A stretch of DNA of 64,000 bases from an uncultured Clostridia bacterium. GTDB lineage: Bacteria; Bacillota; Clostridia; Christensenellales; CAG-138. The first letter of the stretch is position 1; the number at the start of each line of letters is the position of its first letter. Made by a program: the position numbers and the translations under genes. Below are positions 8,148-63,884 of the stretch, piece after piece. The stretch covers positions 57,067 through 121,066 of the forward strand of contig CAMVMM010000006.1 of NCBI GenBank assembly GCA_947168565.1, written 5' to 3'. The notes beneath the pieces are model-generated. The model was not told where the DNA came from. It searched no databases and saw nothing but the letters and a program-made list of their open reading frames with translations.

Positions 8148-8176
8148 TTGAAACGCGGCGGTCGATGTGGTATAAT
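8148..8176 (+). promoter_or_regulatory. Sigma-A promoter for the cohesin gene
   Basis: TTGAAA, 17 bases, TATAAT. It leaves a leader of about 80 bases before ATG 8263. Confidence 0.8.
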
Positions 8177-8262: not shown

Positions 8263-9312
8263 ATGAAACGCATCCTTTCACTCATAGCGGCCTTTATGCT
8301 TGCGGCCGTTATCATCGTTCCCGCAGCCCATGCAGGCGGCGGCCCCGCTGTTTTTTCCATGAACAGCGTTGAAAACGTGTCCCCCGGGCAGAGCTTCACC
8401 GTTACGCTCAGCATCTCGGGCAGCTATCAGGTTCACGGCATGAACCTCTCCATAGAGTTCGACCCCAATTCCATGACGCTTGAAAGCTGCGATCAGGGTG
8501 ACTACCTCAATAACGCAAGGCTGAACAGCGGCCTTGTGGTGCTGGATGCTCAAACCCTAGTTTCGCAGGGCAAGATCAAGCTGGGCATCGCAATGCCCAT
8601 GGACGCCGCCACCGGCTCGGGCGAGCTGCTCAAAATGAAATTCCACGTCAACGAGGGCGTTACCGTGAATCAGCAGGTGATCATGGTCATCCACGAGTTC
8701 ATCTATATGCCCGTTGGCGAGAGGACCGGCACCCCCGTTCCCTTCAGCACCCATAACTCCATCATCACCCTCAACGGCGGCAGCACTCCCGCAGCGGGCT
8801 ATAACCCCGGCGACGACGGAATAGGCAACAATATCTCCTCCTCGCCCAGCCAGCCCCCGGCGCCCACTCCCGCCTCCGGCAATACCCCCGTGCCGAATAA
8901 TACCCCCGTTCCCGGCAGCACCCCCTCCGCGGGCGATACCACCGCTCCGAACCCCACGCCGAATTACGCATCGACCAGCGCTCAGCCTCAGGGCAGCGGC
9001 GATCCCGATCAGCAGGGCGAAGCGGCAACACCCGGAGCCGATGAGAGCGGCGCACCCGTGGACGCCTCCGCGAATCCCGACGACCCGAACGCGACCGCCG
9101 ATCCGAACGCGACCGCCGATCCGAACGCGACCGCCGACCCGAACGCGAGCGCCGATCCGAACGCGAGCGCAGACCCCGACAGGAGCTCCGAGAGCAAGGC
9201 CGCCGCAAAGAGCGGCTCCGCGCTGCCCTATATCATAGCGGCGGTGGCCGCAGCCGGCGCGGCTTGCGGCGCGGTCTTCTTCTTCAACTCAAAGAAAAAG
9301 AGCCGTAAATAA
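8263..9312 (+). CDS. Membrane-anchored cohesin-domain surface protein
   Basis: Secreted scaffold-like protein of 349 aa. It has a signal peptide (about 1-24, ending AHA), one cohesin-type beta-sandwich (about 27-172), a long Pro/Thr/Ser/Asn linker, five tandem ADPNAT or ADPNAS repeats (about 275-305), and a C-terminal hydrophobic helix with the basic tail KKKSRK that should anchor it in the membrane. The cohesin signature is the early SVENVSPGQSFTVTLSISG strand, then LSIEFDPNSMTLES and GELLKMKFHVNEG. Cohesins bind dockerins, and the next gene ends in a dockerin, so the pair probably assembles at the cell surface. AGGAGA precedes the ATG at 7 bases. There is one cohesin only, so this is not a classic multi-cohesin scaffoldin. 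Confidence 0.87.
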   Translation: MKRILSLIAAFMLAAVIIVPAAHAGGGPAVFSMNSVENVSPGQSFTVTLSISGSYQVHGMNLSIEFDPNSMTLESCDQGDYLNNARLNSGLVVLDAQTLVSQGKIKLGIAMPMDAATGSGELLKMKFHVNEGVTVNQQVIMVIHEFIYMPVGERTGTPVPFSTHNSIITLNGGSTPAAGYNPGDDGIGNNISSSPSQPPAPTPASGNTPVPNNTPVPGSTPSAGDTTAPNPTPNYASTSAQPQGSGDPDQQGEAATPGADESGAPVDASANPDDPNATADPNATADPNATADPNASADPNASADPDRSSESKAAAKSGSALPYIIAAVAAAGAACGAVFFFNSKKKSRK

Positions 9313-9391
9313 GGCAAAAAAGCCGATGGATAAATAAGCCGGATGGGGCGGATGCGCCCCATCCGCGCAAACGCATAAAGAGGTTGCAATA

Positions 9392-10372
9392 ATGTTCAGG
9401 CATATCAAATCAAACGGACATTCCGCGGCTGCGCCCAAGGCGCCTGCTGCCGCGCTGCTTGTTTTTGCGCTCATTTTCACCCTCTGCACCTCCGCCTTTG
9501 CGGGAAAAGAACCGAATAACGCACCAACTCCCGACGATCTTGAGGTCGTCGGGAGCAATATTTCCGCTATGTCCGCCGTGGATATCTACGGCGCGGCCGT
9601 CACCGGCGAGGTGTTTTCGCAAAAAAGCCTCACAGTGCTGCATTATTTTGCCACCTGGAGCGCGGAGTGCGTGCGCGAGCTGCCCATGCTCCAGCAGGCG
9701 CTCAACCATTACGGCGCGGGCGAGATTGCCGTTTACGGGCTGCTGCACGAGGACGCAACGAGCAATCCGGAAAGCTGCGCCATGCTATTTGAAGAGCTTT
9801 CGATAAGCTACGGCTGCCTGAGGCTGGACGGCGTGCTGACCGCGCTTGTGAACGTGTATCCCTACGTGCCGCAAACCTTCTTTATAAACTCGGAGGGCGT
9901 GGTGGTGCGGCACTTTCCCGGAAGCTTTGAGAGCTATGCGCAGCTCGACTCGCTTATTTCTCAGGAGCTGGGGCATCCCTCCGTTTTCCACGAGGTACGA
10001 TTTATCGACGGGCTCACCGGTGCGCTCATCCAAAGCGTTTTCGTTTCGCACGGCGAAAGCGCCGTTCCCCCGGAGCCGCCGCAGCATGAGGGCTATATGT
10101 TTTCCGCATGGGAGGGCAGCTATCAAAACGTAACGGAGGATCGCGTGGTGCGGGCGGTTTACGTTTCCTTGGGCACGGGAGGCATTCCCGGGGACGTGGA
10201 TGGGGACGGCAGCCTCACCACGGCGGACGCGCTGATGATACTGCGCCACGTGATCGGCACCGCATGGAGCGAGGGCGTTGCGCTGAATGGCGACGTGAAC
10301 GGCAGCGGTTCCGTTACTGTGGCGGACGCAATGCTTGTGCTCAGGCACGCGCTGGGCTTGATAACGCTGTGA
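9392..10372 (+). CDS. Secreted thioredoxin-fold protein with InlB-type repeat and C-terminal dockerin
   Basis: Exported protein of 326 aa. A signal peptide ends near residue 38. Residues about 50-190 form a TlpA-like thioredoxin fold, but the usual WCxxC site reads WSAEC, so the first cysteine is serine and only one remains. Residues about 215-268 match a Listeria-Bacteroides (InlB B-type) repeat ending WEGSYQNVTEDRVVRAVY. The last 50 residues are a type I dockerin with two calcium loops, GDVDGDGSLTTAD and GDVNGSGSVTVAD, each followed by a helix ending in RHVIG or RHALG. It lies 80 bases downstream of the cohesin gene, probably in the same operon. A disulfide-exchange role is doubtful. Confidence 0.87.
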   Translation: MFRHIKSNGHSAAAPKAPAAALLVFALIFTLCTSAFAGKEPNNAPTPDDLEVVGSNISAMSAVDIYGAAVTGEVFSQKSLTVLHYFATWSAECVRELPMLQQALNHYGAGEIAVYGLLHEDATSNPESCAMLFEELSISYGCLRLDGVLTALVNVYPYVPQTFFINSEGVVVRHFPGSFESYAQLDSLISQELGHPSVFHEVRFIDGLTGALIQSVFVSHGESAVPPEPPQHEGYMFSAWEGSYQNVTEDRVVRAVYVSLGTGGIPGDVDGDGSLTTADALMILRHVIGTAWSEGVALNGDVNGSGSVTVADAMLVLRHALGLITL

Positions 10373-10385
10373 ACCGGGTAATTCT

Positions 10386-12269
10386 ATGAAGATTGTGATA
10401 GGGCTCGGAAATCCGGGCAAGGAATACGAAAAAACAAGGCATAACGCGGGCTATATGGCGCTGGACGCGCTTGCCGGAATGCTGGGCATCCGTGTGGATC
10501 GCCGCGGCTTTCGCTCCGTTTACGGCGAGGGCAGGCTCGGCGGGGAGCGCATCGTGCTTGCCAAGCCCGAAACCTATATGAATAATTCCGGCTTCGCGGT
10601 GGTGGAGCTTTTGAACTGGTTCAAGCCCCGTATCGAGGAGCTTATAGTTGTTTACGACGATATAGACCTTCCCTGCGGTGCGCTGCGCATCCGCCAAAAC
10701 GGCTCCGCCGGCACCCATAACGGAATGCGCAGCATCATAGAGCAGCTCGGCAGCGAGGATTTTCCCCGCGTTCGCATAGGCATAGGCAAGCCCGCGCACG
10801 GGCTTATTGACCATGTGCTCGGCGTTCCCGGCGAGGAGGACGCAAAGGCGATAGCCGCCGCGCTCCCCCTTGCGGCGGAGGCGGTGAAGCTTATCGCCCA
10901 AGGCAGGCTCGATGAGGCGCAAACGAAATATAATTACAAGCCGCAGAAGCAAAAGCCCTCCGGAGAAAACGGAAAAGGCGGGGGCGGCAGGGATGCCGGC
11001 ATAGCGGCGGCCCTCGGAAGGGAGGGCTTCTATGTAAATCCCCGTCATGCTTCTTGCGAGCGCGTGCTTCCGCATATTCCTTACTCGATGGAGGACGTGC
11101 TTGAAGCGGAAAAAAGGCTGCAAAGGTTCGCCCCGCTGATCGCAAGGCTGTTTCCGGAAACGGCAAAAAGCGGCGGCGTAATCGAATCCGCGCTTTTGAG
11201 GGCGGACGGGCTGAGAGCGGCGGCTGCGCAAAGGGCGGGTACGGAGCCTGAAAGCATAGGCAGCGTGCTTATAAAGCTTGATTCCGAGCTGCCCGTGGCG
11301 GGCTCGGTGAAGGCGCGCGGCGGCATCTACGAGGTGCTTTGCCGCACCGAGAAGCTTGCGCTTGAGCACGGCCTTATCACCGAAAAAAGCGATTATTCCA
11401 CCCTTGCCGAGCACAGGGACTTCTTTTCGCGCTGCACGGTGCAGGTCGGCTCCACGGGCAATCTGGGGCTGAGCATAGGCATTTCCGCCTCCGCGATAGG
11501 CTATAAAACCATAGTTCACATGAGCGCGGACGCGAAGGAGTGGAAAAAGGCGCTGCTGCGAAGCCGCGGTGTGACCGTTATCGAGTATGAGGGCGATTAT
11601 ACCGACGCCGTGCGCAGGGGGCGCGCGCTTTCGCAGGCGGATCCAAACAGCTATTTTGTGGACGACGAAAACTCCGTCGAGCTCTTCATGGGCTACGCGG
11701 TGGCGGCGCTTAGGCTTGAAAAGCAGCTTCGTGAGCGCGGAATAAGCGTGGACGCGGAGCACCCGCTCTATGTTTACCTGCCCTGCGGCGTGGGCGGCGC
11801 TCCCGGCGGCATCACGTTCGGCTTGAAGCTCATCTTCGGAGATAACGCGCACTGCGTTTTAGTGGAGCCGGTGAATGCGCCGTGTATGCTTACGGCGCTT
11901 TTGAGCGGCAAATGCGCCCCGGTTTCAAAATACGGCCTCAGCGGAAAAACGGATGCGGACGGGCTTGCGGTTGGCACGGCGTCAAGGCTGGTGTATAATA
12001 CCGTGGGCAGGCTGATAGACGGCGAGGTCACGGTTTCGGATGAGCGGCTTGCGTCGCTCGTGCGCCTTGTGCATGAAACGGAGGGCATATTCATAGAGCC
12101 CTCGGCTGCCACCTCCGCATTCGGGCTTATTTCGCTCATCAATGCGGCGAAGGAAGGCGCATTAAAGGAAAACGCCCTTGAAAAGCTGCCCTTTGCCACG
12201 CATATCCTTTGGGCCACGGGCGGAGCGCTCGTGCCGCCCGAGGAAAGGGAAAAATACATCCGCTCCTGA
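10386..12269 (+). CDS. Peptidyl-tRNA hydrolase fused in frame to D-serine ammonia-lyase
   Basis: One open frame of 627 aa that joins two enzymes. Residues 1-188 are a full peptidyl-tRNA hydrolase (Pth): GLGNPG at the start, H19 in TRHNAG, the KPETYMNNSG loop, YDDIDLP and GTHNGMRS. Pth frees tRNA from dropped peptidyl-tRNAs. Residues about 212-627 match D-serine dehydratase (DsdA), a PLP enzyme turning D-serine into pyruvate and ammonia: K309 in GSVKARGG is the Schiff-base lysine, and HMSADAKEWKKALLRSRGV and YLPCGVGGAPGG are family signatures. A Gly-rich linker (about 190-205) joins them. The usual DsdA N-terminus is shortened by about 25 residues, and I find no separate start codon for it. 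It begins 13 bases after the dockerin gene. Confidence 0.88.
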   Translation: MKIVIGLGNPGKEYEKTRHNAGYMALDALAGMLGIRVDRRGFRSVYGEGRLGGERIVLAKPETYMNNSGFAVVELLNWFKPRIEELIVVYDDIDLPCGALRIRQNGSAGTHNGMRSIIEQLGSEDFPRVRIGIGKPAHGLIDHVLGVPGEEDAKAIAAALPLAAEAVKLIAQGRLDEAQTKYNYKPQKQKPSGENGKGGGGRDAGIAAALGREGFYVNPRHASCERVLPHIPYSMEDVLEAEKRLQRFAPLIARLFPETAKSGGVIESALLRADGLRAAAAQRAGTEPESIGSVLIKLDSELPVAGSVKARGGIYEVLCRTEKLALEHGLITEKSDYSTLAEHRDFFSRCTVQVGSTGNLGLSIGISASAIGYKTIVHMSADAKEWKKALLRSRGVTVIEYEGDYTDAVRRGRALSQADPNSYFVDDENSVELFMGYAVAALRLEKQLRERGISVDAEHPLYVYLPCGVGGAPGGITFGLKLIFGDNAHCVLVEPVNAPCMLTALLSGKCAPVSKYGLSGKTDADGLAVGTASRLVYNTVGRLIDGEVTVSDERLASLVRLVHETEGIFIEPSAATSAFGLISLINAAKEGALKENALEKLPFATHILWATGGALVPPEEREKYIRS

Positions 12270-13825: not shown

Positions 13826-14515
13826 ATGGATATTGCAAGGATCTTTGAGCACGACGTGCAGATAAAAAACCTTTTCGACCTCACCAAAACCCGCGCCGCC
13901 TTCCTGTTTGAGGGCATAAAATACCCCTGGGAGGCGCTTGCGGGCATAAGCGAGGCTATAATGAAAATTGGCGCGTTTCTTCCGGAGGATGAGTTCGATC
14001 ACCCCAAGGAGGACGTGTGGATAGCGAAGGACGCAAGGGTGTATCCCACCGCGTGGATAAACGGCCCCTGCATCATAGATCACGGCACCGAGGTGCGGCA
14101 CTGCGCGTTCATTCGCGGCAGCGCCCTCGTGGGTCAAAACTGCGTTGTGGGCAATTCGGCGGAGCTTAAAAACGTGATCCTTTTCGATAACGTGCAGACC
14201 CCTCATTATAACTACGTGGGCGATTCCATCCTGGGCTATAAGGCGCACATGGGCGCGGGCTCGATAACCAGCAACGTTAAGAGCGACCGCAGCCCCGTGG
14301 TGGTGAAAACCGGCGACGTGCGTATAGATACCGAAAGGAAGAAGTTCGGCGCGATGATAGGCGATCAGGCCGAGATCGGCTGCAACACGGTGCTGAACCC
14401 CGGCGCGGTGGTGGGCAGGGCAAGCACGGTTTACCCCGTTTCCTGCGTGCGCGGCTTCGTGCCCGCCTACGCCATTTATAAAACAGGCGGCGAGATCACG
14501 TTTAAAACGAAATAA
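13826..14515 (+). CDS. Left-handed beta-helix transferase, GlmU C-terminal-domain-like
   Basis: Protein of 229 aa with hexapeptide-repeat character from about residue 60 to 215 (for example VWIAKDARVYPTAWINGPCIIDHGTEV and AMIGDQAEIGCNTVLNPGAVVG read in sixes), the signature of a left-handed parallel beta-helix. Such proteins are trimeric acyl- or nucleotidyl-sugar transferases. Similar short proteins in Clostridia are often annotated as UDP-GlcNAc pyrophosphorylase-like, but this one lacks the nucleotidyltransferase domain of full GlmU. The loop NYVGDSILGYKAHMGAGS resembles the acetyl-CoA/sugar-phosphate region of GlmU. Its position after glmM supports a role in aminosugar acetylation. Confidence 0.78.
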   Translation: MDIARIFEHDVQIKNLFDLTKTRAAFLFEGIKYPWEALAGISEAIMKIGAFLPEDEFDHPKEDVWIAKDARVYPTAWINGPCIIDHGTEVRHCAFIRGSALVGQNCVVGNSAELKNVILFDNVQTPHYNYVGDSILGYKAHMGAGSITSNVKSDRSPVVVKTGDVRIDTERKKFGAMIGDQAEIGCNTVLNPGAVVGRASTVYPVSCVRGFVPAYAIYKTGGEITFKTK

Positions 14516-14519
14516 AGCT

Positions 14520-14547
14520 TTGCTTTCGCCCGTTTTTCGTGTATAAT
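14520..14547 (+). promoter_or_regulatory. Sigma-A promoter for aspS
   Basis: TTGCTT, 16 bases, TATAAT. It leaves a leader of about 35 bases, too short for a T-box. Confidence 0.65.
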
Positions 14548-14588
14548 ACTTCGGTAACACAATAAATCAACCAAAAAGAGGTAGCTTC

Positions 14589-15923
14589 ATGCAAAGAACA
14601 ATGATAAAGGACATCCGCTCCGCAGTGGGCGGCACCGCGAAGGTATCCGGCTTTGTGGAAAATTTCAGGGACGGCAAATCCATGGCGTTCATCGTCATCA
14701 AGGATATCACCGGCAAGCTTCAGATCACGGTGGAAAAGGAAAAATGCCCCGAGCTGCTCGACGAGCTTGCCACGATCACGCCCGATTCCGTGATAACCTG
14801 CACGGGCGCCGTGATGGAAAACGAATACGTGAAAATGGGCGGCATAGAGCTGCTTCCCACCGAGCTCAAGGTGGAATCCGTGGCGGAGGCGCTGCCCATC
14901 GTGCGCAAGGAGATACCCGCCACCAAGAAAAAGCAGGCGGTGGAGCGCTCCTTCATAGATCAAAGGCTGAATTACCGCTGGGTGGATCTGCGCACCGATG
15001 AAAACCAGCTTCTTTTCAAGGTGCAGAGCTGCCTTGTGAACGCGATGCGGCAGTATCTGATGGACAACGGCTTTATAGAGATCCATTCGCCCAAGCTCAT
15101 AGGCGCGGCGAGCGAGAGCGGCGCGGACGTGTTTGAGGTCAAGTATTTCGACCGCAAGGCGTATCTTGCCCAGAGCCCGCAGTTTTATAAGCAGATGGCG
15201 ATGGCGGCGGGCTTCGAGCGCATCTTCGAGGTAGGCCCCGTGTTCCGTGCGGAAAAATCCTTCACCAGCAAGCATACCACCGAGTTCACCGGCTTCGATC
15301 TGGAGATGAGCTATATAGATTCCTACCGCGACGTGATGGATATGGAGGCGGGAATGCTTGCCTGCGCGCTGGGCATAGTTAAGGAAAAATACGGCGAGGC
15401 AATAAAGGAGGCGTTCGGCACCGAGGTGATAGTGCCCGCGCTCCCGTTCCCCGTGGTTTCCCTCAATGAGCTTTACGATGAGCTTGAAAAGGAATACGGC
15501 TATAAGCCCGAGGGAGGCGACCGCAGCGACCTGACCACCGATGCGGAGAGGCTCAGCGGCGAATGGGTCATGAAAAAATACGGGCACGAGTTCCTGTTCG
15601 TGGTGGATTACCCCGCCGCAAAGCGCGCTTTTTACCACATGCGCGGGGAGGACGGCAACCCTCTTGGCTACGACCTTATCTGGCGCGGCGTGGAGATCAC
15701 CACCGGCGCACAGCGCGAGCACCGCTACGAGATCCTTAAAAAGCAGGCGGAGGAAAAGGGGCTTGGGGAGGACGTTAAGTTCTACCTCGAATTCTTCAAA
15801 TACGGCTGCCCGCCCCACGGCGGCTTCGGTCTGGGCGTGGACCGCCTCACCATGCTGCTGCTTGGGCTCACCATTAAGGAAGCGATGTTCATCTTCCGCA
15901 GTCCGGACAGATTGAATCCGTAA
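14589..15923 (+). CDS. aspS: Archaeal-type aspartate--tRNA ligase (probably Asp/Asn-tRNA)
   Basis: Class II synthetase of 444 aa that charges tRNA with aspartate. It has an N-terminal OB-fold anticodon domain (about 15-105) and the class II catalytic core. Motif 2 is FEVGPVFRAEKSFTSKHTTE and motif 3 is GFGLGVDRLTMLLLG. It lacks the roughly 130-residue GAD insert of normal bacterial AspRS, so it is the archaeal-type form (AspS2). In some Clostridia such enzymes act on tRNA-Asn and need GatCAB amidotransferase to make Asn-tRNA. Whether this genome has a second AspRS cannot be seen here. A terminator hairpin follows. Confidence 0.92.
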   Translation: MQRTMIKDIRSAVGGTAKVSGFVENFRDGKSMAFIVIKDITGKLQITVEKEKCPELLDELATITPDSVITCTGAVMENEYVKMGGIELLPTELKVESVAEALPIVRKEIPATKKKQAVERSFIDQRLNYRWVDLRTDENQLLFKVQSCLVNAMRQYLMDNGFIEIHSPKLIGAASESGADVFEVKYFDRKAYLAQSPQFYKQMAMAAGFERIFEVGPVFRAEKSFTSKHTTEFTGFDLEMSYIDSYRDVMDMEAGMLACALGIVKEKYGEAIKEAFGTEVIVPALPFPVVSLNELYDELEKEYGYKPEGGDRSDLTTDAERLSGEWVMKKYGHEFLFVVDYPAAKRAFYHMRGEDGNPLGYDLIWRGVEITTGAQREHRYEILKKQAEEKGLGEDVKFYLEFFKYGCPPHGGFGLGVDRLTMLLLGLTIKEAMFIFRSPDRLNP

Positions 15924-15969
15924 AGGCTCACTTTATAGCAATACATTATATAAGATCTTTCGCTCACCC

Positions 15970-16006
15970 TGCCTGCCGCGTGCGATGCTGCGTGGCGGGC
16001 ATTTCT
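15970..16006 (+). terminator. Terminator after aspS
   Basis: TGCCTGCCGCG pairs with CGTGGCGGGCA through a 10-base loop, followed by TTTCTT. Two pairs are G-T. Confidence 0.65.
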
Positions 16007-16121
16007 TATATCGGCTGTAATTGTAATAAAACAACAATAAAACGAATTACCGCTCAATTACACAATGCAATTAAATAATACTTGAAAACATTCGGAAAGC
16101 GGCACCGCCACCCATATCGGC

Positions 16122-19100
16122 ATGGAGCTTGCAAACAATATCTTTGCAGCTCACAGAAACGACAGCTACGACGGCAATAAGCAGCGCAACAAGGTCATGG
16201 TCGTTTTTTCGGACGGCACCCCCGGCTACTACGGCTACAGCCCCCAGTGGGCGGCCAAGGCGGTCAATGCCGCCAACAGGGCCAAAAATGAGTTCAGCGC
16301 AAAGGTTCTCACCGTTGCCCTGGTGAACCACAGGCTCAATGCCGATACACATGCCTACTACGGCGGCAGGTATCCGAACAGCAACGAGGTCGAGGCCACC
16401 CGCGCCAACACCTCCGAGCTTATGAACGCGCTTTCAAGCAATTATCCGAACGCGGCCGGCAACGAAACCACGGGCGCGATCAGCCTCGGCGCGCGGGCTT
16501 CGGATCGCTATTTCCTCAACGTTACCGACTCCGTGGATATGAACTATGCCACCGGCAGCACCTTCGACAACGTGGCGAGGCTCACCGATGCGTTCCTCAA
16601 TATTCCGGAGATAGTGCTTTCCTCCCAAACCGGCTACACCTCGGGCGCAAACCTCGGCGCAAACAGCGTTATAAGGGACTATATGTCCGAATACTTCAAG
16701 CTGAACGAGGATGAGTGGAACAGGCTGCTCAATTCTGCCGACGTGGGCGGCGATGTTGAAGAGGCAAACAGCATCTTCGCCAGCCATCACGTGTTCGTCA
16801 GGATCCATTCCTGCACGGGCTATGATACCGCGACCGGCGAATACGTTTTCAACCCCATCCATGACGACGCCGAAGATTTCTATGAAGCGGCCGACGATCT
16901 TGAAGGACTGAACTGGTACGAGGTTTACTATAAGTACAACAACCGTCAGCCCGCAGGCATAAGCGTTGATTTCGATTTCTATCAGAAATCCGTTGCGGTA
17001 AGCGGCTTTGATTATTCCGCGAACTACTGCCGCACCACCGGCGGCTCCGCCGTGAACGGCGTTCGCCCCGCCACCGGCAAGAAGGTGGTAGTGTTGATAA
17101 CGGGCGTTCTTGCGGAGGAAAACACCGTGGGCAAGAATATCCCCACAAATAAGGATTATTCCGGCGTTTACCCCAATCCCTCCACCACCACCACCGAATT
17201 CGTTTTCCCCGTGCCAACGGTGAATATCCGCGAACACATCGTGGTCTACGATTTCGGCATCCGTCTGGAGGATGACGACGCGCTGAATTTCTTCGGCAAA
17301 TCCGAGCACGAGCACGACGTGAAGGATATTCTGAGTCTGGACGACTGCTACGGCGAGCAGGGCTACTTCCCCTGCTGGTTCTTCGACGAGCCCACTATAC
17401 CCGATATGCAGCAGTATGCAAGCTGCCGCTTCGAGTACAAGACCTCATACCCCTACGCCCAGCACGGCACCGATTTTTACTGGGGCAACGAGGGCTACCC
17501 CGCCAGCAAGGATTACGATACCCTCAAGGACCTTTTCAGGGCTGAGATAGTTGAGGACAGCAACGGCAGATACCATGCCGCCTTCGAGCCGTATACCATC
17601 AGCCATCAGGACTACACCCTTGCGGCGCTGCTCCGACTCAATGACGACACCTTCGAGTGGTGCCGCCTCACCTTCCTGCCCGCCACGAACGTGCTGTATG
17701 AGGAGCGCATCGTGAATATCGGCGGCGAGATCCGAGACAACGGCTTCATGGCGTTCACGGACGGCACGGGCGCGGCATGGGAGCATAACGAGGGCTGGCA
17801 CAAGAGCGACTATCAGGATGCGGACAACAATATCTACGGCTTCGATAAGGACTACACCCTGCACGACGATACGCACGACAGCCACGGCGGCGCGCATCAC
17901 GCCACCGTGACCGAGGCCATGTTCAATGCCGCGAAGAACGATCTGAACTATAAGTGGCCGAGCTGCGAGTTCACCTTCAGTGGCACCGGCTTCGACCTTA
18001 TCTCCCGCTCCGGCGCGGACACGGGCGTGCTTGCAGTGAGCATAGTTCCCGCCGATAAGACGGACTGGGCGTATTTCGGCACGCAGGCCACCGACCCCAT
18101 CACCGGCATGCCCATGGTGGATGCAAGCGGCAAGCCCGTTATGTCCCGCGATTACGCGCATATCGTGGTGGATACGGTTTATCTGGACGGCGCGGGCAGA
18201 AGCCTGTATCAGATCCCCGTGCTGCATTACGATAACCTTGAGTACGGCGAGTACAAGGCGATAATCTCCGCCATCTATCACCCCATGTTCGATCATCAGA
18301 GCGAGAGCTATGAGCAGAGGGGCAGCCGCGTTTCAAATATCCCGGGTCTTCCCGGCATCGAATACGAGATCCAAAGGGTGGATCCCGGCGCCAAGGCCGC
18401 TCCCGATACCAGGGGCAAGGGCGAGCTGACAACCTATATCGACGCGATCCGCGTATACCATCCCCGCGGAGAGAGCATCTTCGGCAAGGGCGTGGACGAG
18501 ATCTCCTACCTCAAGGCAAACGACAACGGGTCCGAGCTGAATCCCGAGTATATCCAGGTGAAGCAGCTCTTCCTCAGCCAGAATGCGGACGGCGCGGGCA
18601 TCGTGAACCTTTATATCGACGATGCGGGTGAAAACGTGGTCACGGTTGAGGATTACGCAAACAACGGCCCGAACAACGAGGCTTATATCAAGGCGGGCGA
18701 GAAGTATGCCGTTTCCTTCAGGCTGGACGGCGACTATGCCGGCATCCACCTCAGCGCCAAAACCGCGTTTCCCGCCGAGACGGGCGCAGCGGCAAACACC
18801 GTGAAGCTTAAGGTGAACGGCACCGTGGTAGGCACCGTGCAGCACGCCACAGAGCTTTACTACGATATCACAGAGGCGGTCCGCACGAGGGACGGCATGG
18901 TCACCGTAACCTGCGAAAGCGATTCCGCCGAAGCGGTGCTCTCGCTTGTGAATCTCAAGCTCATCCCCGCCGTTGGCGAGGCAAACACTCAGCCCGCTCC
19001 GAACGTGGTTTCCGATCAAAGCGTGCTCGATTTCACCGAGGCGGTGGTTGCCGGCGTTACCGGGGATGCGAATCACGATAGGCAGGTGGATATGATCGAT

Positions 19101-19238
19101 GCGCTCTTCGTGATGCGCTGCTCGCTCGACGCCTGCGAGCCGGACGCCTACGGCAAAGTCTGCGGCGACGTGGACAGCAACTATGCTCTTGATATGCTGG
19201 ACGCCGTGAGCATCATCAGGCTTACTCTTAAAGACTGA
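16122..19238 (+). CDS. VWA-domain dockerin protein, 5'-truncated
   Basis: Frame of 1038 codons without a credible beginning. The first visible residues fall inside a von Willebrand A fold: an in-frame stretch just before the ATG reads SGTATHIG, then comes MVVFSDGTPG. The MIDAS motif and any signal peptide, which should precede them, are missing, and an in-frame stop lies at 16083. No ribosome-binding site precedes ATG 16122. The rest is intact: about 900 residues of beta-rich extracellular sequence, then a C-terminal dockerin (about 985-1038) with loops GDANHDRQVDMID and GDVDSNYALDMLD. A recent 5' deletion, or loss at an assembly junction, explains this best. As it stands, the product would not be secreted. 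Confidence 0.75.
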   Translation: MELANNIFAAHRNDSYDGNKQRNKVMVVFSDGTPGYYGYSPQWAAKAVNAANRAKNEFSAKVLTVALVNHRLNADTHAYYGGRYPNSNEVEATRANTSELMNALSSNYPNAAGNETTGAISLGARASDRYFLNVTDSVDMNYATGSTFDNVARLTDAFLNIPEIVLSSQTGYTSGANLGANSVIRDYMSEYFKLNEDEWNRLLNSADVGGDVEEANSIFASHHVFVRIHSCTGYDTATGEYVFNPIHDDAEDFYEAADDLEGLNWYEVYYKYNNRQPAGISVDFDFYQKSVAVSGFDYSANYCRTTGGSAVNGVRPATGKKVVVLITGVLAEENTVGKNIPTNKDYSGVYPNPSTTTTEFVFPVPTVNIREHIVVYDFGIRLEDDDALNFFGKSEHEHDVKDILSLDDCYGEQGYFPCWFFDEPTIPDMQQYASCRFEYKTSYPYAQHGTDFYWGNEGYPASKDYDTLKDLFRAEIVEDSNGRYHAAFEPYTISHQDYTLAALLRLNDDTFEWCRLTFLPATNVLYEERIVNIGGEIRDNGFMAFTDGTGAAWEHNEGWHKSDYQDADNNIYGFDKDYTLHDDTHDSHGGAHHATVTEAMFNAAKNDLNYKWPSCEFTFSGTGFDLISRSGADTGVLAVSIVPADKTDWAYFGTQATDPITGMPMVDASGKPVMSRDYAHIVVDTVYLDGAGRSLYQIPVLHYDNLEYGEYKAIISAIYHPMFDHQSESYEQRGSRVSNIPGLPGIEYEIQRVDPGAKAAPDTRGKGELTTYIDAIRVYHPRGESIFGKGVDEISYLKANDNGSELNPEYIQVKQLFLSQNADGAGIVNLYIDDAGENVVTVEDYANNGPNNEAYIKAGEKYAVSFRLDGDYAGIHLSAKTAFPAETGAAANTVKLKVNGTVVGTVQHATELYYDITEAVRTRDGMVTVTCESDSAEAVLSLVNLKLIPAVGEANTQPAPNVVSDQSVLDFTEAVVAGVTGDANHDRQVDMIDALFVMRCSLDACEPDAYGKVCGDVDSNYALDMLDAVSIIRLTLKD

Positions 19239-61071: not shown

Positions 61072-61127
61072 ATAGGCAAGCACCCGAACGGGCGCTGATG
61101 AACAAATCATATATGGAGGAAAAAAAC

Positions 61128-63884
61128 ATGACAAAGAAGCTCATCAGTCTCCTTGTTGCCGCGCTCATGGTTCTCAGCCTTGTGCCCGCGGCGGCATTTG
61201 CGAGCAATGACTCCAGAGCTGCGGATCCCGCTCCCGTTAAGGGCGAGCAGGTCGCGTTCTGGAATTTCGACGACGTCGCTCCTCTTGACGAGGGCTGGCT
61301 GTTCGTTGATGCGGACGGCGACGGCCTGACCTGGGAGCGCTCAAGCCTTGTGAGCGCCAACAGCGGCACCTACATGATCGCCTCCGCCTCCTATGACGGC
61401 GGTGCGCGCACTCCCGACAACTGGGCGATCACCCCCGCGGTGGCTCTGCCCGCAGGAGATCAGGTTTCGCTCCGCTATTATGTGAGGACGTACTCCGCAA
61501 GCTATCGTGAGAACTACCGCATCTACGTGGGCACCGATACCAATATCGAGTCCATGGAGCCCGTAACCGAGGATATGCTGAGCGAGAACAACACCGATTG
61601 GAACGAGAAGGTGATCGATCTTTCCGCCTATGCGGGCGAAACGATCTACATCGCTTTCCGTCACTACAACTGCACCGATCAGTGGAGATTCTTCATTGAC
61701 GACGTTGAGGTGTTCACCGGCGAGGCCCCCGCTCCCGAGCCCACTCCGACTCCTCCGGCAACCGAGCCTCCGGTAACCCCCGAGCCCTCCGGAAACATCA
61801 TCGCCGGCTACTATTTCGAGACCGACGAGGACGTGAACGCCTGGACCTTCATCGGCGGCACGGGCACCAACTGGGTATCCTCCTCAAACAACCCCGGCGG
61901 CTATGACTACACCACCTACGCGCACGAGGGCAGCAGGTTCATCCTTTCCTATTCCTTCGTGGACTACGTTGGCGCTTATCAGGCCGACAACTGGGCGATC
62001 TCTCCCGCAGTCACCCTGCCCGAGGGCAACCCCAGCGTCAGCTTCTATGCGAGCAACGCGAACTCAAGCTATCCCGAGCCCTTCTCGGTATATATCGGCA
62101 GCACCGCCGACACGGCCGAAATGACGCTGCTTCAGGGCGACATCACCCCTCCCAGCGGCTATACCGATCCCTGGACCCGCTACGAGATCGACCTTTCCAA
62201 TTACGCCGGTCAGACCATCTATCTTGCGTTCTACGATAATGCGTATGACTGCTACGAGATCTGGATCGACCAGGTTGAGTTCCTCGGCGAGGGCGGCGTT
62301 GAGCCCACTGCCGAGCCCGATCCCACTGCCGAGCCCGAGCCCACCCCCGAGCCCCCCGCGAACCTTATCAAGGGCAGCTACTTCGAGGAGCAGGCCGAGG
62401 TGGACGAGTGGACCCTCCTTGATGAGGACGGCGACGGCAACAACTGGTACTGGCTTGCATACGGCATCAACCAGAACACTGCAAACATGGCGTACGAGGG
62501 CGTGGGCAATCTCACCTCCGCTTCCTATTTTGGCGGTGCGCTGACCCCCGACAACTGGGCCATCTCCCCCGAGGTAGCAATCCCCGCTGCGGGCGGCTCC
62601 GTGTCCATGTATCTTGGGCCGCAGGATGTCAGCTGGGCCGAGGAGCACGTTGCCATCTACGTCGGCACCGGCTCCGATGTGTCACAGTACCAGCTCCTGG
62701 ACGAGTTTACCCTTGTTCCCGCCGATTATACGGAAGAACTCAATTATAAGCTGTTTGAATACAGCCTTGACGAGTTTGCCGGCCAGACCGTAAGCGTTGC
62801 GATCCGTCACTTCAACTGCACCGATATGTTCCGTCTCAACCTCGACCAGGTTGAGTTCTTCGCCAATGAGGACGAACCCGTTGAGCCGCAGGTGATCGAC
62901 CATATCGACATCATCAACTTCACCGAGCCCGTTTGGGGCGAGGCTCCCGCATACGACGTTTCCGTGGTTCTCGGCGCACCCTACTCCATCACCTATACCG
63001 ACTGGAACTGGGAGATGGGTCTGGACGGCGACATGATGACGGACGGCGAGATCTTCGATAACCCCGATTACGGCTACTTCATGTTCTTCGTTGTAAATCC
63101 CGCCGAGGGCTACACCTTCGCGGAAAACACCGTTATCATGGTGAACGGCGATCCCACCCTCGTTGGCCCCAACTCCATCGAGGCGGACGAGATCGTGTTT
63201 GCAACCATTGACTTCTTCGTTGAAGAGCCCGCTCCCGCAGGCGATCTGGACGAGGCGCTGAACGTTGAGGGCGGCGAGCTCCATTTCGTAAGCGAGGGCG
63301 ATTATCCCTGGATCGTGGTTGAGGATGGCGATAGGCTGTACGCAATGAGCTCGAACGCGGGCGTCAGCAGCTCTCAGTCCGTGCTCACCACCACCTTCAC
63401 CGCCAATGAGGGCGACGTGGTCACCTTCGAGTTCCAGGCATGGGGCGAGGGCACAAGCACCTTCTGGGATTACTGCGAGTTTGCGATCGACGGCCAGCGC
63501 ATGGGCTACTGGGGCGCATACCAGCATGATTGGGAGACCTTCACCTCCGAGCCTCTGACCGCCGGCGAGCATACCCTCACCTGGAGATATTCCAAGGACA
63601 GCAGCGTGAATAAGCCCGGCGACTGCTTCATGGTGGATAACGTTGAGATCACCGCCGGCGAGCTTCCCCCGAGCGGCGTACTCGGCGACGTGGATATGGA
63701 CGGCGATGTGGACACTGCGGACGCGCTCATGGCGCTGCGCTACGTGATGGGTCTTATCGATCTCACCGACGAGCAGCTTGCGCAGGCCGAGGTAAACGGC
63801 GATGAGGAAGTCACCATTGCGGACTCCCTGCTTATCCTCCGCAAGGCAACCGGCATCATCATGTGGTTCCCCATCGAGAACTGA
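61128..63884 (+). CDS. Secreted cleaved-adhesin (choice-of-anchor J) protein with C-terminal dockerin
   Basis: Exported protein of 918 aa. A signal peptide (about 1-26, ending FAS) is followed by three similar jelly-roll domains at about 40-205, 230-385 and 410-590. Each has the DNWAI(S/T)P motif and ends with an aromatic DQVEF or DDVEV strand; they resemble cleaved-adhesin/choice-of-anchor J domains. Glu/Pro/Thr linkers separate them. Then come two further beta domains and a C-terminal dockerin with loops GDVDMDGDVDTAD and EVNGDEEVTIAD. GGAGGA is 7 bases before the ATG. It should dock onto a surface cohesin, such as the one at 8263. Confidence 0.9.
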   Translation: MTKKLISLLVAALMVLSLVPAAAFASNDSRAADPAPVKGEQVAFWNFDDVAPLDEGWLFVDADGDGLTWERSSLVSANSGTYMIASASYDGGARTPDNWAITPAVALPAGDQVSLRYYVRTYSASYRENYRIYVGTDTNIESMEPVTEDMLSENNTDWNEKVIDLSAYAGETIYIAFRHYNCTDQWRFFIDDVEVFTGEAPAPEPTPTPPATEPPVTPEPSGNIIAGYYFETDEDVNAWTFIGGTGTNWVSSSNNPGGYDYTTYAHEGSRFILSYSFVDYVGAYQADNWAISPAVTLPEGNPSVSFYASNANSSYPEPFSVYIGSTADTAEMTLLQGDITPPSGYTDPWTRYEIDLSNYAGQTIYLAFYDNAYDCYEIWIDQVEFLGEGGVEPTAEPDPTAEPEPTPEPPANLIKGSYFEEQAEVDEWTLLDEDGDGNNWYWLAYGINQNTANMAYEGVGNLTSASYFGGALTPDNWAISPEVAIPAAGGSVSMYLGPQDVSWAEEHVAIYVGTGSDVSQYQLLDEFTLVPADYTEELNYKLFEYSLDEFAGQTVSVAIRHFNCTDMFRLNLDQVEFFANEDEPVEPQVIDHIDIINFTEPVWGEAPAYDVSVVLGAPYSITYTDWNWEMGLDGDMMTDGEIFDNPDYGYFMFFVVNPAEGYTFAENTVIMVNGDPTLVGPNSIEADEIVFATIDFFVEEPAPAGDLDEALNVEGGELHFVSEGDYPWIVVEDGDRLYAMSSNAGVSSSQSVLTTTFTANEGDVVTFEFQAWGEGTSTFWDYCEFAIDGQRMGYWGAYQHDWETFTSEPLTAGEHTLTWRYSKDSSVNKPGDCFMVDNVEITAGELPPSGVLGDVDMDGDVDTADALMALRYVMGLIDLTDEQLAQAEVNGDEEVTIADSLLILRKATGIIMWFPIEN

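Follow-up and report, generated by a model that had tools for sequence, protein, structure and literature searches.

A conserved single-cohesin membrane protein is the probable anchor of a cohesin-dockerin assembly without recognised dockerin-borne glycoside hydrolases in a genus of uncultured Clostridia

OlpA and OlpC of Clostridium thermocellum and ScaE of Ruminococcus flavefaciens are anchored by SLH or other wall-binding parts or by sortase. For a dockerin system that lacks glycoside hydrolases (GHs) and carries peptidases, adhesins or thioredoxins as cargo, we found nothing closer in the literature searched, at partial depth, than Lachnoclostridium sp. MSJ-17, and a precedent may exist. 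The accessible part of the survey describing this strain lists 39 dockerin proteins, of which one is a fibre-degrading dockerin-GH, besides three single-cohesin proteins, two of them ending in a transmembrane (TM) helix, and a single scaffoldin with two cohesins; it classes the strain as 'scaffoldin-containing' and non-cellulolytic (PMC11557425). As far as that part of the source goes, dockerin number and the number of fibre-degrading dockerin-GHs are related near-linearly (R2 0.81), and genomes were admitted only with at least one dockerin-GH, so that a genome like the present one would not have entered (PMC11557425). In the mucinolysome of Limousia, the sections of the report at hand place the LPxTG anchor cSca5 among the most expressed genes and name tandem cohesins for cSca1 and cSca2 (PMC12997984). 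According to the available excerpt of a further study, which also deals with cellulosomal protease inhibitors, S8, cysteine-peptidase and CotH proteins are known cellulosome accessories, and a cell-bound scaffoldin is the preferred partner of an S8 double dockerin (PMC12484212).

Here we followed up a cohesin gene in a 64,000-nucleotide stretch of an uncultured Clostridia genome (the window), about which a reading of the letters alone (the sequence-only reading) had made several claims. In our preferred interpretation, the product encoded from position 8263 is probably the membrane anchor of a GH-free, proteolytic or adhesive assembly. The gene and the site ahead of it comprise:

8148..8176, + strand: promoter-like site upstream of the anchor gene (TTGAAA-17-TATAAT, the second hexamer preceded by TG)
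8263..9312, + strand: 349 aa protein with one cohesin and a membrane anchor (in order: signal-like N end, cohesin, linker, TM helix, basic tail)
8356..8697, + strand: cohesin domain of the 8263 product (Pfam boundaries at residues 32-145; the fold spans about 29-175)
8788..9222, + strand: Ala/Pro/Ser/Asp-rich linker with DPNA repeats (low confidence; probably disordered, from pLDDT and composition)
9223..9309, + strand: C-terminal transmembrane helix and KKKSRK tail

As the sequence-only reading had proposed, the protein carries one cohesin and a C-terminal membrane anchor: a domain search found the cohesin above the cut-off (PF00963, E 1.4e-10, Pfam scan), its fold was supported by an AF2 model and a PDB structure match, and a TM tail follows. 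In the AF2 model, residues 203-321 had pLDDT below 50. No sortase-type motif was found at the C end, and the tails of the nine relatives with a complete anchor gene looked alike by eye. With its cohesin and C-terminal TM helix, the product fits a non-SLH anchoring scaffoldin as defined in the accessible part of the survey (PMC11557425). Fold comparison gave the best Z score with a type I cohesin (15.8, against 13.5 and 12.8 for type III and 12.3 for type II), at 23% identity or less among the fold matches listed and 9-16% identity to OlpA, OlpC and ScaE; on this model, we describe the domain as type-I-like. PDB cohesins were matched by fold comparison only, as a sequence search of the PDB returned no cohesin and one weak match, to the linker, and a plasmid search with the cohesin domain gave no match. 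Because the region holds two promoter-like sites against 1.1 expected from shuffles, the promoter at 8148..8176, with 11 of 12 consensus matches, is only suggestive.

Right after the cohesin gene, a gene ending in a dockerin had been noted:

9392..10372, + strand: secreted ResA/TlpA-like protein with a C-terminal dockerin (326 aa; InlB-like stretch, by eye; W-S-A-E-C)
10187..10345, + strand: dockerin domain of the 9392 product (Pfam and genome-wide dockerin profile search)

A Dockerin_1 match with two repeats of the Ca-binding type (7.1e-9, 36.2 bits against a cut-off of 22.9) bore this out. The AhpC-TSA match of the same protein stayed below the cut-off (2.6e-4, Pfam), and its thioredoxin fold was recovered by Foldseek (4.9e-10 to ResA, 1su9). 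Its CXXC active site is not kept, the first Cys being lost in W-S-A-E-C; the first-Cys position is Ser (W-S-x-x-C) in nine of ten sequences, comprising the window and nine relatives, and Tyr (W-Y-D-V-C) in one (G023), while the Trp and second Cys are invariant in all ten. Ordinary dithiol exchange by this protein is therefore unlikely, judging from its sequence. WCGPC is retained in five other redoxin-dockerins of the same genome. The next ORF (10386-12269) fuses a putative peptidyl-tRNA hydrolase (Pth) with a PLP enzyme, presumably one like D-serine ammonia-lyase; it is undivided in seven of eight readable relatives and split into two slightly overlapping ORFs in G024.

Two further dockerin genes had been proposed in the window, at 16122-19238 and 61128-63884:

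16122..19238, + strand: probable remnant related to VWA-dockerin proteins (5'-truncated; without a signal-like stretch)
19062..19220, + strand: weak dockerin of the 16122 product (19.1 bits against a cut-off of 22.9, Pfam scan)
61098..63884, + strand: secreted 928 aa protein with Cleaved_Adhesin three times and a dockerin at its C end (61128 is an alternative start)
63681..63836, + strand: dockerin domain of the 61098 product (Pfam and genome-wide dockerin search)

Dockerins were found in both, that of the 16122 product reaching 22.2 bits in the genome-wide search and 24.4 with its neighbours. Its paralogs C8_32462 and C21_14579 align to the window DNA only from about 16092-16101, beginning at residues 205 and 235, respectively; no earlier part of the gene was found at E<=1e-3 in any frame of 14500-19238, and the upstream frame contains a stop and no signal peptide. 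The gene is probably a remnant, and its product, 5'-truncated and without a signal peptide, is for these reasons doubtful as cargo. The 61098 product matched PF07675 at 7.4e-56 and PF00404 at 1.7e-6 (Pfam). The VWA protein, one of the three cargoes named by the sequence-only reading, shows no export signal.

The anchor gene has an ortholog in all ten other genomes of the genus (g1), each matching at 1.6e-50 or better; in G025, a contig end falls inside the gene. A tree built from 34 cohesins (24 from the window's genome and 10 from relatives; bootstrap not fully settled, C31 on a long branch) placed the window cohesin and its ten orthologs in a single clade (99/99) that excludes the remaining 23 cohesins of its genome. 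The order of the two genes is kept as well, with the 9392 ortholog downstream in all nine relatives whose contig continues and the Pth/PLP-enzyme gene next in the same nine; on these comparisons, the cohesin-dockerin gene pair is old. Such strict synteny in nine of nine readable relatives would suit a private pair, in which the 8263 cohesin binds only the 9392 dockerin and a ResA-like protein is tethered at the membrane, apart from scaffoldins. The neighbour's W-S-x-x-C, unlike the WCGPC of the five other redoxin-dockerins, and its invariant Cys (10 of 10) point the same way. The 9392 dockerin, however, falls into the commonest recognition-residue class of its genome, shared by 42 of 62 dockerins, and under exclusive pairing the 27 dockerin ORFs of G024 would have no partner in their own cell. 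We regard a private pair as rather unlikely.

In G024, three probes found one cohesin, which is the ortholog of the window gene. Its dockerins amount to 29 matches, 27 of them over the cut-off, in 27 ORFs (three interrupted by contig ends and one of 67 aa). The genome is 95% complete and, MAGs being incomplete, could have lost a scaffoldin. With the sole cohesin found standing beside 27 dockerin ORFs, the anchor therefore probably serves many dockerins; if the G024 dockerins work in their own cell, its cohesin must be promiscuous. We also compared residues at two positions, which we take from cellulosome work to be those of dockerin recognition: 18 of 26 G024 dockerins and 42 of 62 from the window's genome fell into the commonest class (Fisher p = 1.0), no difference that would bear on promiscuity either way, after 3 of 91 rows in which two repeats were not recognised, the 61098 dockerin among them, had been dropped. 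The 16122 dockerin lies outside that class.

The sequence-only reading had pictured a small system, with an anchor and no multi-cohesin scaffoldins. A genome-wide search for cohesins and dockerins, proposed there as a check, overturned both points. The window's own genome (G000; 2.36 Mb, 91.7% complete) holds 23 PF00963 matches (E<=0.1) in six ORFs, or 24 cohesins with a profile built from 15 of these 23 matches, and its dockerin matches at E<=0.1 number 65, lying in 63 ORFs; the cut-off is passed by 61 of the matches and 60 of the ORFs. On this census, a small private system was rejected. Besides the window gene, five other ORFs encode cohesins: a TM-ended scaffoldin with 11 (Pfam) or 12 (own profile); a 5-cohesin scaffoldin (C10) interrupted by a contig end; a TM-ended protein combining 3 cohesins with DUF2436 and Cleaved_Adhesin domains, both of which we take to be gingipain-type; an adaptor uniting 2 cohesins with 2 dockerins and with C-type lectin domains, counted among the 63 dockerin ORFs; and C31, the second of two single-cohesin TM proteins in the genome, whose cohesin scored 20.8 bits by Pfam against a cut-off of 24.1 (24.2 with neighbours) and 1.9e-21 with the own profile. 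The adaptor's two cohesins form a long separate branch in the tree. The adaptor itself (L061:5473-9252) shows two C-type lectin stretches and InlB repeats, and one of its dockerins has unusual NNLDKL repeats. The C10 scaffoldin (G000:C10:89622) runs off its contig in InlB-type repeats, and the end of C8 (G000:C8:95660) carries the same repeat, then a dockerin; both ends probably belong to one scaffoldin with a C-terminal dockerin, and they were left unjoined, with the C8-end dockerin counted among the 63 ORFs. By a simple hydropathy rule, 64 of the 66 cohesin or dockerin ORFs with a complete N end have a signal-like N end. No CBM family, and so none of the cellulose-binding kind expected on a cellulosome scaffoldin, was found on the six cohesin ORFs, all of which were scanned, the C10 scaffoldin being incomplete at its contig end. 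The genome does encode multi-cohesin scaffoldins together with many dockerin subunits, which is one of the traits of a cellulosome.

All 63 dockerin ORFs were scanned with Pfam, the three window ORFs at E<=1 and the other 60 at E<=0.01. None carried a GH family (E<=0.01) or a catalytic family of polysaccharide lyases or carbohydrate esterases, and no dockerin-borne cellulases, hemicellulases or mucin-glycan GHs were found among them. PF00150 (GH5), the family covered by the genome-wide GH search, is absent from the genome. An ordinary cellulosome with hidden GHs was rejected on the count of 0 of 63 and the absence of PF00150. The sequence-only reading's remark that the window cargo includes no carbohydrate enzyme therefore extends, as far as recognised enzymes go, to all 63 dockerin ORFs, which supports its term 'non-cellulosomal'. 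Recognised domains were LRR_4 (11 ORFs, 6 over the cut-off), Cleaved_Adhesin (10, all over the cut-off, two of them also S8), Peptidase_S8 (6), AhpC/Redoxin (6, the window one below the cut-off), VWA (2, one over the cut-off), Cthe_2159 (one strong, one weak) and CotH, CHAP and CAP (one each). Four ORFs contain HEYQH, with a weak metallopeptidase match in one and none in the other three; they are likely metallopeptidases. Three redoxin-dockerin genes with WCGPC stand in tandem at L066:2671-5037 (G000:C4). Among carbohydrate-linked domains, C-type lectin domains are also present, and CBM_35_2 and the hyaluronate-lyase N domain gave one weak match each, below the cut-off. For at least 11 of the 63 ORFs, Pfam gave nothing informative besides the dockerin, which leaves room for an unrecognised carbohydrate enzyme; C37_1744, with a below-cut-off dockerin, had no Pfam match at E<=0.01.

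Two relatives, scanned in the same way, showed a similar cargo. In G022, 61 of 62 dockerin ORFs (one of 49 aa was left out; Dockerin_1 at E<=0.001 in 58 of the 61) yielded LRR_4 (11), Cleaved_Adhesin (6), AhpC (5), S8 (4), Cthe_2159 (3) and CotH (2). In G024, all 27 were scanned and yielded LRR_4 (5), S8 (4) and CotH, AhpC, Cleaved_Adhesin and Cthe_2159 (one each), among the best 25 of 30 families. GHs were absent from the best 25 of 49 families in G022 and from the best 25 of 30 in G024, so a singleton GH is possible in either. An Endonuclease I domain (E 1.9e-32) was found in one of the G022 dockerin ORFs. GH5 matches occurred in 2 of the 11 genus genomes, four in G018 and one in G022; by coordinates, none of the five lies within a dockerin-match ORF, two of the G018 matches being interrupted by contig ends.

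These results bear on the alternative that the 8263 product is the anchor of a cellulosome, amylosome or mucinolysome of the ordinary kind, with carbohydrate enzymes that were overlooked because the MAG is incomplete or because they are divergent. Its architecture resembles that of cellulosome and Limousia mucinolysome anchors, as far as the accessible text of both sources shows (PMC12997984, PMC11557425), and the 91.7% completeness, the Cthe_2159 and C-type lectin domains and the dockerin ORFs (at least 11) without an informative domain leave such enzymes some room. We nevertheless hold this alternative to be improbable, given the absence of GHs from all 63 dockerin ORFs, of PF00150 from the genome and of GHs among the families listed for G024 (best 25 of 30) and G022 (best 25 of 49), and given that the five GH5 matches, found in 2 of 11 genomes with two at contig ends, all lie outside dockerin ORFs.

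Across the family, cohesins were found in 85 of 103 genomes and dockerins in 93 of 103 (E<=0.001). One cohesin and 0-2 dockerins per genome were seen in 11 of 12 g19 and 7 of 8 g24 genomes, and the four proteins examined by eye (three from g19, one from g24) were one-cohesin TM proteins, a pattern that may favour the single cohesin being a structural or adhesive domain that has lost dockerin binding. In these groups, however, similarity to the window protein is low or absent (best 9.8e-4 in g19 and 3.5e-7 in g24, against 1.6e-50 or better in g1), and every one of the 11 g1 genomes has at least 11 dockerin matches; for the window protein, we consider such a loss very improbable. The g19 proteins L254, L255 and L256 combine a single cohesin with a TM helix and a long, charged tail, and come from genomes with only two dockerin matches. 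In G045 (g19), the two dockerin matches lie about 12 kb apart, on a different contig from the cohesin gene. At L259:3521-6006 in G054, a 260 aa ORF with a cohesin and a dockerin is immediately preceded by an ORF that has a partial dockerin and looks, by eye, transglutaminase-like.

In the preferred reading of the 8263 product as a membrane anchor, the type-I-like cohesin would be projected outward on its flexible linker and dockerin proteins held at the cell surface. The anchor would form a conserved core part of the genus's genome-wide cohesin-dockerin assembly, acting beside other cohesin proteins in most members; in G024, where it is apparently alone, up to 27 dockerin proteins could be held, one at a time. 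The cargo, including subtilases and HEYQH proteins, suggests binding and breakdown of protein; WCGPC thioredoxins might open disulfide bonds of the substrate, and attachment to substrate or to partner cells could fall to the LRR, gingipain-type adhesin and C-type lectin domains. Cohesin-dockerin binding, anchor promiscuity and protein as the target are what we infer. From the earlier proposal of a surface assembly for a job other than plant fibre, the GH-free cargo and the single-cohesin anchor remain, and its small, scaffoldin-free character does not. Speculatively, and with rather less confidence than in the anchor role itself, the genus may have turned the cellulosome architecture wholly to non-carbohydrate work, as a surface 'proteolysome' with docked thioredoxins, subtilases, metallopeptidases and adhesins, its founding part being an anchor able to display dozens of dockerin proteins without a scaffoldin, as in G024.

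Like MSJ-17, as portrayed in the accessible part of the survey, the genome combines single-cohesin TM-ended proteins with many dockerin proteins; unlike MSJ-17, whose largest scaffoldin has 2 cohesins and which has one fibre-degrading dockerin-GH, it has a scaffoldin with 11-12 cohesins and no dockerin-GH was found in its 63 dockerin ORFs (PMC11557425). The Limousia mucinolysome, going by the available sections, likewise comes from gut Clostridia and has several scaffoldins, dockerin peptidases and an anchor whose cohesin is N-terminal; it is, in contrast, defined by dockerin-borne mucin GHs, and cSca5 carries an LPxTG signal, where the anchor here has a TM helix and no such signal (PMC12997984). 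OlpA, OlpC and ScaE, in contrast, serve fibre-degrading cellulosomes. Cellulosomal peptidases, as presented in the excerpt available, accompany GHs, whereas peptidases and redoxins predominate among the enzymes recognised here (PMC12484212). The present system has parts in common with MSJ-17, Limousia and the cellulosome accessories, and stands apart from them in that its large scaffoldins occur together with numerous dockerin ORFs, none of them with a recognised GH. Having 63 dockerin ORFs of this kind, the genome lies outside both the near-linear relation and the selection of the survey, in the part of it accessible (PMC11557425). If the interpretation is true, the cohesin-dockerin toolkit is used on a large scale for jobs beyond sugar breakdown, and G024, in which 27 dockerin ORFs accompany the one cohesin found, is a simple natural case in which to ask how much a single anchor can hold.
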